Shown here: piece by piece, positions 1-4,127 of the stretch
How the letters are laid out: every line of letters starts with the position of its first letter
Numbering within the stretch: the stretch's first letter is position 1
NCBI GenBank assembly: GCA_029263175.1
Contig: JAJCXZ010000039.1
Location: forward strand, 1-36,239
DNA from: Acidimicrobiales bacterium
Lineage (GTDB): Bacteria; Actinomycetota; Acidimicrobiia; Acidimicrobiales; Aldehydirespiratoraceae
Length of the DNA stretch: 36,239 nt
Direction: 5' to 3'
Notes under the pieces: model-generated
Seen by the model: only the letters and a program-made list of their open reading frames with translations
Databases searched by the model: none
Told to the model about the DNA's origin: nothing
Made by a program: the position numbers and the translations under genes

Positions 1-1
1 G

Positions 2-370
2 GGTCCGGTTGTTGTCTTCTTCTACCCGAAGGCCATGACGCCTGGTTGAACGAAGGAAAGCTGCCATTTCCGCGACCTGGCCGCCGAGTTCGAAGAGCTC
101 GGAGGCCAGCGAGTGGGAATCAGCGCCGATCAGGTTGATCGGCAGAAGGAATTCGACGAGGCGAACGATCTGGGGTTTCCGCTCCTCAGCGACCCCGATC
201 GGGAGGTCCACCGCCTGTTCGGGACCAAGCGTCTCGGGCCGTTGCCGGGGAAGCGAGCGACGTTCGTCGTCGACAGCGATCGGCGTCTCGTGCGTTCGAT
301 CCGCAGCGAGACAAACATGTTGACGCACGCTGATGAAGCGCTCGAGGTGCTTCGCGAACTCGCTAGCTGA
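2..370 (+). CDS. Peroxiredoxin, Bcp/PrxQ type, probable selenoprotein (5' end outside window)
   Basis: Thiol or selenol peroxidase reducing H2O2 and organic hydroperoxides in the cytoplasm. Reading from base 2 without stopping at the UGA at 47-49 gives a continuous Prx fold: GPVVVFFYPKAM, then TPG-(UGA)-TKESC, HFRDL, FPLLSDPDREVHRLFG, and a terminal strand with RATFVVD. In the Bcp family the motif is TPGCTxxxC, so the UGA sits exactly on the peroxidatic Cys. The resolving Cys five residues later is kept. The rest of the frame is intact to the TGA at 368-370. The N-terminal 35-45 residues lie outside the window. Selenocysteine Prx proteins are known in bacteria. The alternatives are a base error or a nonsense mutation. 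An ORF starting at 113 would lack the active site and is not a real start. The 3' end overlaps the convergent gene by 8 bases. Confidence 0.8.
55..71 (+). promoter_or_regulatory. Candidate SECIS hairpin (proximal)
   Basis: Five bases after the UGA, GGAAA at 55-59 pairs with TTTCC at 67-71 around the loop GCTGCCA at 60-66. Bacterial SECIS elements lie inside the coding region just 3' of the UGA, usually with a G near the start of the apical loop, as here. The stem is short and the loop is closer to the UGA than usual, so this is a candidate only. Confidence 0.35.
77..109 (+). promoter_or_regulatory. Candidate SECIS hairpin (distal, stronger stem)
   Basis: Bases 77-88 (CTGGCCGCCGAG) pair with 98-109 (CTCGGAGGCCAG) over 12 positions with one G-A mismatch, around a 9-base loop, TTCGAAGAG. 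The loop begins 39 nt past the UGA, slightly beyond the usual SECIS distance. It is the most stable local hairpin after the UGA and may act alone or stacked with the 55-71 stem. Confidence 0.35.
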
Positions 371-932
371 GACCTTCGTCGAGCCAGGCCGGAGCGCGGT
401 CGAGGAGAAACTCGGCGACGCTCTGGCACTTGTCGAGCACATCGCAGAGGACTTCCTGGCCCAGATAGATCCGGGCAAGGCTGACTTCGACGCGAGACAC
501 GATGGCGATGGCTCGCTCGGGGGCGTCTGTGACGGCAGCGAAGCTGTCGACCGCCGAGACCTCGAGAGGTAACCCCATCCCGCCAATGGCGGCGAGGTCG
601 GTTGCCAGCACGAGAAGATCCGGGCCGGCGGGTAGCGGTGGCAGTGCGAAGCTGAACGTGACCGGGATGACGATCGAGCCGTCGGGCTCGCCGCCTTCCC
701 CCACCCGGACGACCTCGTCCTCGAACAAGATCGTGACGCGCGGGTCGACTTCGAGTGCGACGTGCATGTCGAGTGGTCCATCGCACGCTCGGTCGGGATG
801 CAGGTCGACTTCCCACGTCTGTCGGTTTGTGTAGGTCTCGATGAAATGGCGTTCGTCGTGGACGTGAAACCCGTGCTCTGCAACGTGGTCTTTCAGATCG
901 GCGACGAAGCCCTGAAGATCGATCACTGCCAT
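363..932 (-). CDS. Conserved-looking hypothetical protein, acidic, about 190 aa
   Basis: I do not recognise the family. The protein is soluble (no signal peptide or membrane segment) and acidic. It starts MAVIDLQGFVADLKDHVAEH and contains WEVDLHPDRACDGPLD, a DPRVTILFEDEVVRVGEGG strand pair, a proline-rich PLPAGPDLLVLATDLAAIGG stretch, and a C-terminal helix ending APAWLDEGLS. The ATG at 932 is chosen because it opens the first helix-like segment. An ATG at 950 would add six residues. Its stop overlaps the end of the convergent peroxiredoxin gene. It points away from the IMPase gene, with which it shares the 933-1020 upstream region. Codon use matches its neighbours. Confidence 0.7.
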   Translation of the reverse strand: MAVIDLQGFVADLKDHVAEHGFHVHDERHFIETYTNRQTWEVDLHPDRACDGPLDMHVALEVDPRVTILFEDEVVRVGEGGEPDGSIVIPVTFSFALPPLPAGPDLLVLATDLAAIGGMGLPLEVSAVDSFAAVTDAPERAIAIVSRVEVSLARIYLGQEVLCDVLDKCQSVAEFLLDRAPAWLDEGLS

Positions 933-1020
933 CGCTGACCAGCCTGCCATGATTTCAGGGCGACGCGTCGCGGGATCGAGGGTCAGTGGATTCGCGTCGC
1001 TCTTGTGGTTCACTGCCGCG

Positions 1021-1767
1021 GTGGACGATGCCACGCTTCTCTCTGCCCTTCACGAGGCCGTAGACGCTGTGGTCGGCGCGTTCGGCGACCACAACGACTG
1101 GGGGTTGTCCGGAGGTCGGGATGGCCAGTACGCCAGTGATCTGGTGGCCGACGAAGCTGCGCTCGTCATCCTCGAAAGACATGGAATCCAGGTCCTGAGC
1201 GAGGAATCGGGCCTGGTTGGCGACGGCGACGGCTCGGTCATCGCGGTACTCGACCCACTCGATGGCTCGACGAACGCCTCGCGTCCGCTGCCATGGTTCG
1301 CCACCAGTCTTTGCGTCGTTGACAGCGAGGGTGCACGTGCTGCGGTCGTTCATGACCACCCCGCCGGTGTTCGCTATGACGCCGTCAGAGGGGGAGGGGC
1401 GCGGATCGACGGCGCACCGCTGGCCCGTCGGGAGCCGGTTGCGCTCGTTGATGCAATCGTCGGTGTGAATGGATTGCCGCCACGGAACCCCGGCTGGGCG
1501 CAGTATCGAGCCCTGGGTGCGGCGGCGTTGGATCTGTGCGCTGTCGCCGACGGCCGGCTCGATGCCTATGTCGACTACGACCGAGAAGCGCACGGCAGCT
1601 GGGACTACCTCGGGGGAATGCTCGTATGTCAGGAAGTTGGTGTGACGGTCGGTGATGCCTTCGGGCGTGACCTCGTCACCACTGAGCACCTGGCTCGGCG
1701 CACGCCGATAGCCGCGGTCGGCGCACTGTTCGACGAACTGGTTTCGGCCCGCCGGGATGCCTTATGA
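1021..1767 (+). CDS. Inositol monophosphatase family phosphatase
   Basis: Mg2+-dependent sugar or inositol phosphate phosphatase, 248 aa and about the usual length. The metal site is visible: EESG (first Glu pair), then the signature DPLDGSTN, and near the C-terminus GSWDYLGG, equivalent to the WD-x-A motif that binds the third metal ligand. The family also includes histidinol-phosphate phosphatases, fructose-bisphosphatases and PAP phosphatases, so the substrate cannot be assigned. The GTG at 1021 gives VDDATLLSALHEAVDAV, the normal first helix. An in-frame ATG at 949 would add 24 atypical residues. The stop overlaps the ATG of the following NUDIX gene (ATGA), so the two are translationally coupled. 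Confidence 0.85.
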   Translation: MDDATLLSALHEAVDAVVGAFGDHNDWGLSGGRDGQYASDLVADEAALVILERHGIQVLSEESGLVGDGDGSVIAVLDPLDGSTNASRPLPWFATSLCVVDSEGARAAVVHDHPAGVRYDAVRGGGARIDGAPLARREPVALVDAIVGVNGLPPRNPGWAQYRALGAAALDLCAVADGRLDAYVDYDREAHGSWDYLGGMLVCQEVGVTVGDAFGRDLVTTEHLARRTPIAAVGALFDELVSARRDAL

Positions 1768-2288
1768 CCGGCGAGAAGCTTGGTGGATCGGGTCGGAGTC
1801 TCTACCGGTTCGCGTTGCTCGCCTTTGGGCACCTGCCCGTTGCGGCTCGGCGCTTCGTGATCCGGCGAGTGACGCCGACCTGGAGCGCCGGTGCGGCTGC
1901 GGTCGTCATGCGTGACGACGGCCGCTGGTTGATGGTCCGGCCCGTGTATCGCAAGGGCTGGGGCCTGCCCGGAGGGTTCATCGACCGCAAGGAGCTCCCG
2001 GCGGAGGCCGTGCACCGTGAGCTGCGCGAGGAGCTCGGAATCGAGGTGGTCCTCGACGCCGACCCGTGGATGGTCCACGACTCGGCCCATCGGCGGTTGG
2101 ACACGATCTTCATGGCCCGCCTCGTCGACGGCACCGACCCGGACTCGGTTGCGATCCAGACACCCGAACTCGAGGACATCGGATGGTTCGACCCCGACGA
2201 ACCTCCGCCGCTCGAGCATGAGGCGCACGACATCCTGGAGCTGCGCCGACTGATCAGCGACGGTGGCCATCCGATCCTCATGCGCTAG
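1764..2288 (+). CDS. NUDIX hydrolase
   Basis: Hydrolyses a nucleoside diphosphate linked to another moiety. The 174-aa protein has a complete Nudix box, GGFIDRKELPAEAVHREL followed by REELGI, matching G-x5-E-x7-R-E-U-x-E-E-x-G-U. An N-terminal extension of about 40 residues with many Arg precedes the WSAGAAAVVMRDDGRWLMV strand. The ATG overlaps the IMPase stop by four bases, so it is the second gene of a two-gene operon. Both partners act on phosphorylated metabolites, suggesting a housecleaning or salvage role, which is inferred. Substrate unknown. Confidence 0.9.
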   Translation: MTGEKLGGSGRSLYRFALLAFGHLPVAARRFVIRRVTPTWSAGAAAVVMRDDGRWLMVRPVYRKGWGLPGGFIDRKELPAEAVHRELREELGIEVVLDADPWMVHDSAHRRLDTIFMARLVDGTDPDSVAIQTPELEDIGWFDPDEPPPLEHEAHDILELRRLISDGGHPILMR

Positions 2289-2325
2289 ATGGTTGGGCTG
2301 ACCTCAACTCGAAGCGTTGACCCGG

Positions 2326-2331
2326 TATCTT
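2326..2331 (+). promoter_or_regulatory. -10 element for SLH/sugar dehydrogenase gene
   Basis: TATCTT, eight bases before the ATG at 2340. This TANNNT spacing fits a leaderless transcript starting at or next to the initiator codon. Confidence 0.5.
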
Positions 2332-2339
2332 CGGCGGTC

Positions 2340-4127
2340 ATGACAACTCAGACAGGAATTGGCCGTATGCGGGCGGTCGGCCTGTCGCTCATCGTGGCCG
2401 CCGCCCTGGCGGCCGGTCTCACCGTCTCGCCGGCATCGGCCGGAGCTGTTGACGGCTACACGGTCGGACCGTGCATCACCAATGCGGTTGGTGCCGAACC
2501 GTTCGTGGATGTGGCCGGTGGGCAGTTCTACAGCAACGCCGTGGGATGGGCGTTCCTGAATGACATCACCACAGGCACCGACGAAACGCATTTCTCGCCG
2601 GCCGATCAGGTCACGAGAGCTCAGTTCGCCACATTCATGTGGCGGATGATGTGTGAGCCGGCTGCGGGAGGCTCAGCACCGTTCGTTGACCTCGTCGCTG
2701 GGGCGTTCTACCGCGATGCGCTCGACTGGTTGTGGGAAGCGAAACTCACAACCGGCAAGACCGACACGCTGTACGCCCCCGACGACGCGCTGAGCCGGGC
2801 AGAGTTCGCCACGTTTCTCCATCGCCTGGCCGGGAAACCAACCGGCGCCCCCGAGAGCGGCTTTCACGACGTCGCCGACAATGCCTTCTACACCGAGGCG
2901 GTCGACTGGCTTCTCTGGAGGGGACTGACGACTGGCACGTCGCCGACCACCTTCTCACCGGAACGTGAGATCTCGCGGGCCGAAGCGGTCACCTTCCTGT
3001 ACCGGTTGAACTATCTGGCCGACGGGATCATCGATCCGGCTGATCTGAACCTCGGCTTCTCGACCGTGATCAGTGGTCTTTCGAATCCGGTCGCCGCCGC
3101 ACCTCACCCGGCCGACGGCTCGGTCTACATCGTTGAGCAGGGCGGCGATCTGCTCCGCGTGCCCGGGGACGGCTCGGGGGCCCCGAACTGGGGCGCGGGT
3201 GCCGTGTCGATCTGGTCGATCCCCGGACCCTACGTGCCAACCGGGTGTCACGAATGCGGCTTCCTCGGTGTTGCGATCTCGCCGGACGGCGGGCAGATCT
3301 ACATGTCCTTCACCGCGGACTCCGCCACGGCGAACCAGCGATCGGTCGTGCTCGAGTACGCCCTCGTCGGTGGGGTGCCGTCGGGCGCGCCGGATGAACT
3401 CATCTCCGTGGACCAGCCCCACTCGAACCACAACGGAGGTCACCTCACATTCGGTCCGGACGAGTATCTCTACGCCTCGTTCGGCGACGGCGGCAGCGGC
3501 GGCGATCCCGATGAGCACGGTCAGAACATCGACACCCTGTTGGGAGCGATGCTGCGAATCGATCCGTCGGCTGCAACGGGCTACACCAACCCTGTGGGAA
3601 ACCCGTTTGTGGGAGTCGCCGGGGACGACAGCATCTTCCTGGTTGGTGTGCGCAATCCGTGGAAGTTCTCGTTCGACACCGGCACGGACGATCTCTGGAT
3701 CGCCGACGTCGGCCAGAACACCCGCGAGGAGATCACTCGACTTCGAGCGACAGACGGCGGCGGCCTTGGCGCCAACCTCGGCTGGGACCGCTGGGAGGGC
3801 ACCCATCTTCACGAGGCGGGCGCCGACATCCCAGATCATGTCGGCCCGACCTACGAGTACACGACCAACGGCGCCGAGGGCGGTTCGATCACCGGTGGCT
3901 TCGTCTACCGCGGCGCCGACATCGTCGGGCTGAACGGCACCTACCTGTGGGCGGATTGGAAGGAACCGGAGCTGCGAGGATTCAACGACGAGTTCAGCGG
4001 TGGGGCTATCTGGTTCGGCGTAGACGTGCCCGGCACCTCGGTCGTGTCGTTCCTCCAAGACCTCGACGGCGAGGTGTACGCCATCTCTCACAACGGATCG
4101 ATCTCGAAAATCATTGACCTCGGCTGA
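2340..4127 (+). CDS. Secreted protein: three SLH domains plus glucose/sorbosone dehydrogenase-type beta-propeller
   Basis: Probable cell-surface PQQ-type aldose dehydrogenase, 595 aa. A signal peptide (RAVGLSLIVAAALAAGL, cleavage near ASAGA) is followed by three S-layer homology repeats at about residues 55-102, 112-160 and 172-222. Each has F-x-D-V/L...FY..A..W.....TTG and a final R-A-(Q/E)-F/A...LYRL element. Residues about 235-595 form a GSDH/Hedgehog-interacting-like propeller, with HNGGHLTFGPDEYLYASFGDGG, GAMLRIDP, VGVRNPWKFSFD and LWIADVGQNTREE. These are the hallmarks of soluble PQQ sugar dehydrogenases (YliI/Asd type). SLH repeats normally hold a protein on the envelope through secondary wall polymer. 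PQQ synthesis genes are not in the window, so cofactor use is inferred. The ATG at 2340 is preferred for its -10 element. An ATG at 2367 (AGGA upstream) is an alternative. Confidence 0.85.
   Translation: MTTQTGIGRMRAVGLSLIVAAALAAGLTVSPASAGAVDGYTVGPCITNAVGAEPFVDVAGGQFYSNAVGWAFLNDITTGTDETHFSPADQVTRAQFATFMWRMMCEPAAGGSAPFVDLVAGAFYRDALDWLWEAKLTTGKTDTLYAPDDALSRAEFATFLHRLAGKPTGAPESGFHDVADNAFYTEAVDWLLWRGLTTGTSPTTFSPEREISRAEAVTFLYRLNYLADGIIDPADLNLGFSTVISGLSNPVAAAPHPADGSVYIVEQGGDLLRVPGDGSGAPNWGAGAVSIWSIPGPYVPTGCHECGFLGVAISPDGGQIYMSFTADSATANQRSVVLEYALVGGVPSGAPDELISVDQPHSNHNGGHLTFGPDEYLYASFGDGGSGGDPDEHGQNIDTLLGAMLRIDPSAATGYTNPVGNPFVGVAGDDSIFLVGVRNPWKFSFDTGTDDLWIADVGQNTREEITRLRATDGGGLGANLGWDRWEGTHLHEAGADIPDHVGPTYEYTTNGAEGGSITGGFVYRGADIVGLNGTYLWADWKEPELRGFNDEFSGGAIWFGVDVPGTSVVSFLQDLDGEVYAISHNGSISKIIDLG

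Follow-up and report, generated by a model that had tools for sequence, protein, structure and literature searches.

A probable selenocysteine peroxiredoxin of Acidimicrobiales with a putative SECIS hairpin displaced behind a predicted folded arm

This locus raises the question of how a peroxiredoxin gene is decoded when a UGA codon stands exactly at the place of its peroxidatic cysteine. The gene lies at the beginning of a 36,239-nt stretch of DNA from an Acidimicrobiales bacterium, which is here referred to as the window. A sequence-only reading had proposed a probable selenoprotein at this place; it had left out the SECIS, the hairpin that SelB would bind, and this proved to be the unusual part. 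We consider it very likely (a probability of roughly 0.82) that the gene encodes a selenium peroxiredoxin, with a hairpin named H3 as its SECIS at 83 nt from the UGA and a folded arm between the two that restores the register. No protein, selenium or ribosome data stand behind this reading.

The open frame from base 2 reads GPVVVFFYPKAMTPG-UGA-TKESCHFRD... and ends at the stop TGA at 368–370. When the UGA is translated as Cys, the frame hits Pfam AhpC-TSA at 6e-27, and membership of that family (PF00578) is passed with 94.5 bits against a cut-off of 26. The protein, truncated by the contig edge, remains below the NCBIfam cut-offs for PrxQ (79.8 of 260 bits), thiol peroxidase (75.3 of 140 bits) and peroxi_PrxU (PrxU; 20.2 of 270 bits). 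Because the scores for the first two, both equivalogs, are under the cut-off in this contig-cut protein, we name the gene Bcp/PrxQ-type and use neither equivalog name. The active site of Bcp/PrxQ proteins is PxxxTxxC with a second Cys five residues on, and the window gene satisfies this pattern with P37, T41, U44 (in place of C) and C49. The UGA, read here as selenocysteine (Sec), occupies positions 47–49 of the plus strand (residue 44), and the TGC of the candidate resolving Cys (residue 49) occupies 62–64 of the same strand. The best solved relative by sequence is chain 5epf_A (Peroxiredoxin; 1.4e-36 over window-frame residues 1–121), which differs from the window protein in being listed as a plain peroxiredoxin.

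The earlier reading needs two corrections. The first is that the window is the whole of contig C39 and the gene start sits on contig C69. The first 24 bases of C39 are identical to the last 24 bases of C69, and the end of C69 supplies the missing start, TTG and then NEGDLVDDFELLDQNGTSVALADLVEAGPVVVFF; it holds codons 1–35, in frame with the window, and GGAGG stands five bases upstream of the TTG. The junction itself is an inference, based on the overlap and the shared frame. The full protein inferred through it has 150 amino acids, of which residue 44 is Sec and residue 49 the candidate resolving Cys, and the window holds the 3' part of the gene (1–370, plus strand; residues 29–150). An Rfam scan of window positions 1–2000 gave no match up to E 1. 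Further along, positions 2289–4127 encode a protein of 612 amino acids in which S-layer homology repeats are fused to a glucose/sorbosone dehydrogenase domain.

The second correction is that the UGA is no chance event: it is conserved among relatives. We compared the host with 60 relatives (61 genomes), taking counts from match rows of at least 50% identity and reading the codons individually. An orthologue with UGA at the Sec codon is present in 27 of the 61 genomes and one with Cys in 7, and in the alignments the UGA stands opposite TGC or TGT of the Cys relatives. The search was extended to 298 genomes of the order, which gave 120 matches at 1e-30; one TGA occurs in 35 of the rows listed, spanning eight families, and every one of these codons was read and lies at the Sec site. 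Across 396 genomes of the phylum there are 44 matches at 1e-40; the only two TGA rows belong to the window's own family, and 27 further loci read from this search are all Cys. Altogether, 62 distinct sequences, drawn from no fewer than eight families of the order, share this UGA codon, with the frame open afterwards. Duplicates of the compared stretch were removed, which brought the sets from 63 to 62 UGA and from 113 to 112 Cys sequences at the last step, others having been removed earlier. The nearest named relative is a Candidatus Microthrix metagenome-assembled genome (Microthrixaceae by taxonomy; 78%). On this basis the placing of the UGA at the peroxidatic Cys held, being supported by the frame, the AhpC-TSA match and the UGA orthologues, and a substitution error at Cys, which had been left possible, failed.

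Several loci of these searches stood apart. TAG or TAA was flagged in three matches and rejected, as two (L167 and L172) have TGC at the Sec site without a stop in the alignment and the third (L204) also has Cys there. One UGA orthologue (L072; genome G029, C1:113841-114002) loses its similarity soon after the UGA and looks decayed, while its genome retains tRNA-Sec and selA; its frame being lost after the UGA, it was never in the sequence set. Moreover, a contig labelled Myxococcales (L082) has an Acidimicrobiales-type UGA gene with H3, and mis-binning is possible there, its title coverage being 0.17.

The host genome, 97% complete, possesses the whole selenocysteine machinery, and in this respect the selenoprotein proposal is supported: selA, selB, selC and selD were all found. 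The tRNA-Sec matches RF01852 with 64 bits, over the cut-off, and is called tRNA-SeC with anticodon tca by ARAGORN. The scores of selA (386 bits), the adjoining selB (278 bits) and selD (355 bits) are likewise over their cut-offs, and the host SelB carries a C-terminal Pfam SelB-wing_3 domain. The selD gene (L019, C3:15979-16917, minus strand) contains a single internal UGA within SHGAG-UGA-GCK, which we take to be the catalytic Cys/Sec position of SelD, and has a 7-bp hairpin with a GGUCG loop 32 nt from that UGA. Since SelD itself carries a UGA, synthesis of the selenium donor would depend on a product of the same pathway. Among the 27 genomes with a UGA orthologue, tRNA-Sec is found in 26 (missing in G003, and with only 50.7 bits in G009) and selA in 26 (missing in G036). 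Among the seven genomes with a Cys orthologue, selA is found only in G048, and tRNA-Sec in G048 together with two weak matches of 48.5–50 bits in G007. The machinery is broader than the peroxiredoxin, with tRNA-Sec matches in 48 and selA in 47 of the 61 genomes.

We then asked by which signal the UGA would be recoded. Bacterial SECIS elements are modelled as a stem of 4–16 bp and a loop of 3–9 nt with a G near the loop start followed mostly by G or U (PMC13188914); the distance from UGA to loop is limited to 16–37 nt (PMC13188914, PMC10778597) and the energy to −7.5 kcal/mol or lower (PMC13188914). A scan of the 62 UGA and 112 Cys genes with this model (stem of at least 5) found no conserved SECIS at 16–37 nt from the UGA, hairpins at this spacing occurring in 2 of the 62 UGA and 6 of the 112 Cys genes. 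At a spacing of 70–95 nt, the same scan gave 55 of the 62 UGA genes and none of the 112 Cys genes, and it overlooks H3 in 7 of the 62. In the window, H3 lies at 125–143 on the plus strand and reads GCCGAUCA-GGU-UGAUCGGC, with its loop at 133–135, 83 nt from the UGA. It meets the canonical stem and loop criteria (8 bp, GGU loop), and its energy of −11.2 kcal/mol also satisfies the model. It fails the canonical spacing; with the arm discounted, 10 unpaired and 8 stem nucleotides remain, making 18.

All eight pairs of H3 are formed in 48 of the 62 distinct UGA orthologues and seven of eight in the other 14, and Cys orthologues form 0–5 of the 8 (113 rows, one duplicate still in). Among those examined, H3 is confined to the Sec forms. 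Its loop, written as five letters with the closing pair in 63 rows, is CGGUG in 34, AGGUU in 14 and CGUGG in 6, while seven others occur once or twice each; the loops departing from GGU are CGUGG (6), AGUUU (1) and CGGCG (1). The structure was derived from the first 36 distinct sequences, in which five of the eight pairs have changes on both sides, in 19 cells against 3.9 after shuffling (0 of 500 shuffles as high), and 97.2% of the cells are paired against 2–51% when the helix is slid. In all 62 sequences, five of the eight pairs again have changes on both sides. Loci read later behave in the same way: 96% of H3 cells are paired in 15 UGA loci and 32% in 11 Cys loci of L154–L179, and all 13 UGA loci of L207–L219 have H3 with 7 or 8 pairs. 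One of the later 15 and one of the later 13 UGA loci repeat sequences of the first set and were subsequently dropped.

The expectation given protein and codon use was computed for H3 and for two helices of the arm, P1 and H2, in 50 UGA and 86 Cys genes. Of the 8 pairs of H3, UGA genes form 7.76 where 4.88 would be expected, and Cys genes 2.55 where 2.58 would be. Residue 75 is R in 49, Q in 9 and L in 4 of the UGA genes and K in 81 of the 112 Cys genes, a contrast that might suggest that the RNA dictated the protein. A folding scan against synonymous-codon shuffles (38 UGA and 76 Cys genes, duplicates still in) places the strongest UGA-specific folding in windows starting 19–25 codons past the UGA (p of 1.3e-4, 1e-7 and 2.7e-10). 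At codons 7, 10 and 67 the UGA-specific folding was weaker (p of 0.0014, 0.02 and 0.029), in the windows from codons 16, 28 and 31 the Cys genes are the more strongly folded, and no UGA-specific structure was found in the codon-1 window (z of −0.20 versus −0.23). We regard the evidence for the H3 hairpin, covariation included, as strong; there is no experiment.

A covariance model of the element, built from the 27 UGA orthologues of the 61 genomes, necessarily scores these at 89–123 bits. Cys orthologues reach 26–54 bits through the sequence they share, and the paralogue L065 reaches 26 bits; no convincing match to it was found in other genes of the 61 genomes. A second match in the host genome (C72, E 0.003) has further in-frame stops and no peroxiredoxin, and was taken as chance. 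Two hairpins nearer to the UGA were rejected as SECIS. One, GGAAA-GCUGCCA-UUUCC at window positions 55–71, folds in some UGA genes and not in others. The other, H2 (GAGUUC/GAACUC), is conserved but is without a G[G/U] loop, had no covariation in the first 26 sequences, is broken in some UGA genes and is complete in three Cys genes; it was retained as part of the arm.

The 75 nt between the UGA and H3 are predicted to form an arm that leaves 10 nt unpaired. The spacer from the UGA to the arm (50–59, plus strand) is unpaired in the centroid structure. The folded arm (60–124, plus strand) consists of P0 (60–63 with 121–124), P1 (66–73 with 113–120) and a stem-loop at 77–109 with the inner hairpin H2 (86–91 with 95–100). 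The window's own 111 nt fold with z = −5.8, and the single-sequence fold has P0, P1, the stem at 77–109 and H3. RNAalifold on 36 sequences shows the long-range helix P1 enclosing H2, with H3 directly after; on 62 sequences H3 alone was recovered and the arm was not. P0 is the four-pair version from the single-sequence fold, replacing a three-pair variant from RNAalifold (columns 16–18 with 77–79) that was rejected as equally strong in Cys and UGA genes (pooled z of 5.9 and 5.6). Pairing of P0 would be possible nearly as frequently in Cys genes (0.70 and 0.67 of cells).

The case for the arm rests on prediction, codon choice and some covariation; we consider it good but weaker than that for H3. 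In P1, 18 cells are changed on both sides against 6.3 after shuffling (0 of 500 as high), and 91.7% of the cells are paired against 29–62% when slid; the number of P1 pairs with changes on both sides, three, is within what shuffling gives, 162 of 500 shuffles reaching it. Given the protein, P1 forms 7.40 of 8 pairs in UGA genes, where 5.69 are expected, and 5.62 in Cys genes, where the expectation is 5.46; for H2 the figures are 5.70 of 6 pairs in UGA genes (5.01 expected) and 3.72 in Cys genes (3.50 expected). With the arm counted as present at three or more of four P0 pairs or five or more of eight P1 pairs, arm and H3 together are in the predicted fold of 51 of the 62 UGA genes, in 1% of their synonymous shuffles and in none of the 112 Cys genes; P1 and H3 together are in 38 of the 62, again against 1% of shuffles. 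The arm varies among members, since L210–L215 (families f18 and f17) have a predicted P1 helix of 11 pairs or longer with a variable H2 and no P0, and four f59 loci have a weaker P1 with 5–7 of the 8 pairs. When the spacer is folded alone, 10 unpaired exterior nucleotides are the commonest outcome in UGA genes (45 of 62). Its mean unpaired length is 10.7 in UGA genes, no different from the 10.3 of synonymous shuffles, and 9.2 in Cys genes, so a short exterior length alone is not special. The special feature is the particular closed arm that is predicted. The 10 unpaired nucleotides of the window gene are close to the 11-nt spacing of the upper stem-loop in E. coli (PMC8659212).

These results suggest the following mechanism. 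The Bcp/PrxQ-type peroxiredoxin of this bacterium would carry Sec44 as its peroxide-attacking residue, and the standard bacterial SelA, SelB, SelD and tRNA-Sec would recode the UGA. The SelB-binding hairpin would be H3 (125–143), 83 nt from the UGA to the apical loop and not beside the codon. The 65 nt at 60–124 would close into the arm, so that only 10 unpaired nucleotides part the UGA from the base of arm and hairpin, and the folded arm would present H3 to the ribosome in the usual register. A two-part bacterial SECIS of this form, whose hairpin stands over 80 nt away from the Sec codon and in which a conserved arm of coding sequence shortens the spacer and restores the register, is likely in our judgement. 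The binding of SelB to H3, the need for the arm, the insertion of Sec and the reduction of peroxide are all inferred.

The alternative that survives best, and which we nevertheless hold to be unlikely, accepts H3 as the SECIS and regards the arm as incidental, the SelB of this clade being able to cope with a long, flexible distance, like the systems of archaea and eukaryotes. In its favour, RNAalifold on all 62 sequences retains only H3, the pairing potential of P0 is high in Cys genes too (0.70 of cells), so that the arm partly follows from the protein sequence, and a short unpaired spacer is not special on its own. Against it, P1 exceeds the protein-based expectation in UGA genes and hardly does so in Cys genes, its compensatory changes were matched by none of the 500 shuffles, arm and H3 fold together in 51 of the 62 genes against 1% of synonymous shuffles, and paralogues of the same order retain the normal spacing.

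Considerably weaker is the view that the true SECIS is an unrecognised element beside the UGA and that H3 serves some other purpose, for instance in mRNA stability or in slowing the ribosome, which we consider very unlikely. Some bacterial selenoprotein genes do have elements outside the published model (PMC13188914), H2 is also enriched in UGA genes, and there is the weaker UGA-specific folding in windows from codons 7 and 10. However, model-loop hairpins at 16–37 nt are found in only 2 of the 62 UGA and 6 of the 112 Cys genes, the model loop and the strongest covariation belong to H3, and the codon-1 window is without UGA-specific structure. A sequencing error or a pseudogene is all but excluded: the position at the contig edge, the single base that separates UGA from a Cys codon and the decayed look of the related copy L072 would fit it, but the same UGA in 62 distinct sequences of at least eight families, the open frame after it and the Sec machinery in the genome speak against it. 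A changed genetic code, with UGA as an ordinary amino acid, is compatible with an in-frame UGA alone and can be practically ruled out, as the peroxiredoxin gene itself terminates at UGA (368–370), and tRNA-Sec (anticodon UCA), selA, selB and selD are present, with a UGA inside selD too.

Returning to the selenium peroxiredoxin with a displaced H3, the earlier suggestion that Sec pairs with the retained Cys five residues on held only in part. This Cys is present in the window gene, in 51 of the 62 UGA orthologues and in all 112 Cys orthologues. The other 11 UGA orthologues (L037, L038, L040, L055, L208 and L210–L215) have R, K, A or N instead, and therefore Sec–Cys pairing is not general. Pro at −7 is present in 49 of the 62 UGA and in 112 of the 112 Cys orthologues. 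Sec44, at the family's peroxidatic position, would attack the peroxide. Sec forms therefore tolerate the absence of the resolving Cys; those without it would, we infer, need another partner, for example a small thiol. A Sec peroxiredoxin is thereby documented in at least eight families of one order, and there Sec seems to relax the requirement for the second Cys.

The protein family itself is already known, and within the literature searched it is the recoding signal, a displaced SECIS with a folded spacer, that is new. Sec-containing peroxiredoxins of COG1225 (Bcp) with the motif TxxU are a known bacterial selenoprotein family, with 43 sequences from the Sargasso Sea (PMC1088965; also PMC9312934), and peroxiredoxins are among the families with inferred Cys-to-Sec changes (PMC1794560). 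The window protein belongs to the same family and has Sec at the peroxidatic position following T-P-G; it differs in that the hairpin is 83 nt away and in that 11 of the 62 members here are also without the second Cys. For all families of that survey, predicted bacterial SECIS elements were reported, having been sought with the standard model (PMC1088965). The canonical bacterial SECIS (the bSECISearch model; E. coli fdhF) resembles H3 as a coding-region hairpin with an 8-bp stem and G-G/U in a small loop, and differs in its spacing of 16–37 nt, whereas H3 lies at 83 nt with a folded arm between (PMC13188914, PMC10778597). A long distance is shared with the archaeal SECIS, which in fruA of M. 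maripaludis is 88 nt from the UGA to the stem base (PMC9622424). Archaeal elements, however, are mostly in the 3' UTR with a GAA_A motif (PMC13188914), while H3 lies within the frame, has a loop of bacterial type and occurs alongside bacterial SelA and SelB. In the section that bears on them, PMC13188914 concedes that some bacterial SECIS elements do not follow the model, giving no detail there, and we found no bacterial SECIS displaced by more than 80 nt with a folded spacer in the literature searched, most subscription papers being outside its scope.

The displacement bears on how such genes are sought and decoded. Bacterial SECIS elements are described as immediately downstream of the UGA, mostly 16–37 nt from codon to loop, and SECIS-based searches apply this limit (PMC13188914, PMC10778597); gene finders that do so would miss genes with a displaced SECIS. 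If 83 nt works with a folded arm between, the rule concerns distance in space and not along the strand, and the displaced H3 is a natural test case for how hairpin-bound SelB reaches the ribosomal A site. A two-part SECIS could in principle also act as a switch, since opening of the arm would put the hairpin out of reach.

The history of the Sec label was examined on a tree of 173 rows, 61 of them Sec, one UGA row having been left out as too short. At least three changes of the label are required, perhaps a single gain with two losses. A well-supported Cys clade of family f27 (L167, L171–L173 and L081) is nested inside Sec forms and has 2–3 of the 8 H3 pairs left. Sec forms cluster on the tree, which leaves only 2–3 independent Sec/Cys contrasts, a number insufficient for a sign test; the contrast alone therefore does not carry the case for H3, which depends on codon choice and on covariation among the Sec forms.

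Paralogous UGA genes of the order have a model hairpin at the normal spacing of 20–21 nt in 10 of the 11 scanned, namely nine of ten WWYPKAxTxG-UGA peroxiredoxins and one AhpC-like UxxC protein. The scan found no model hairpin in the tenth peroxiredoxin (L061), and at 70–95 nt such a hairpin is absent from all 11. Because these paralogues and the host's own SelD have hairpins at normal spacing, the same SelB would, by inference, serve both normal and displaced elements. The WWYPKAxTxG-UGA genes (L058–L067) form a second Sec peroxiredoxin family in the order, in which nine of ten are without a Cys five residues on and nine of ten have the hairpin at 21 nt. The AhpC/Redoxin-like protein (L073, in G010) carries UGA-P-P-C (UxxC), and its GGUCG hairpin has a spacing of 20 nt.
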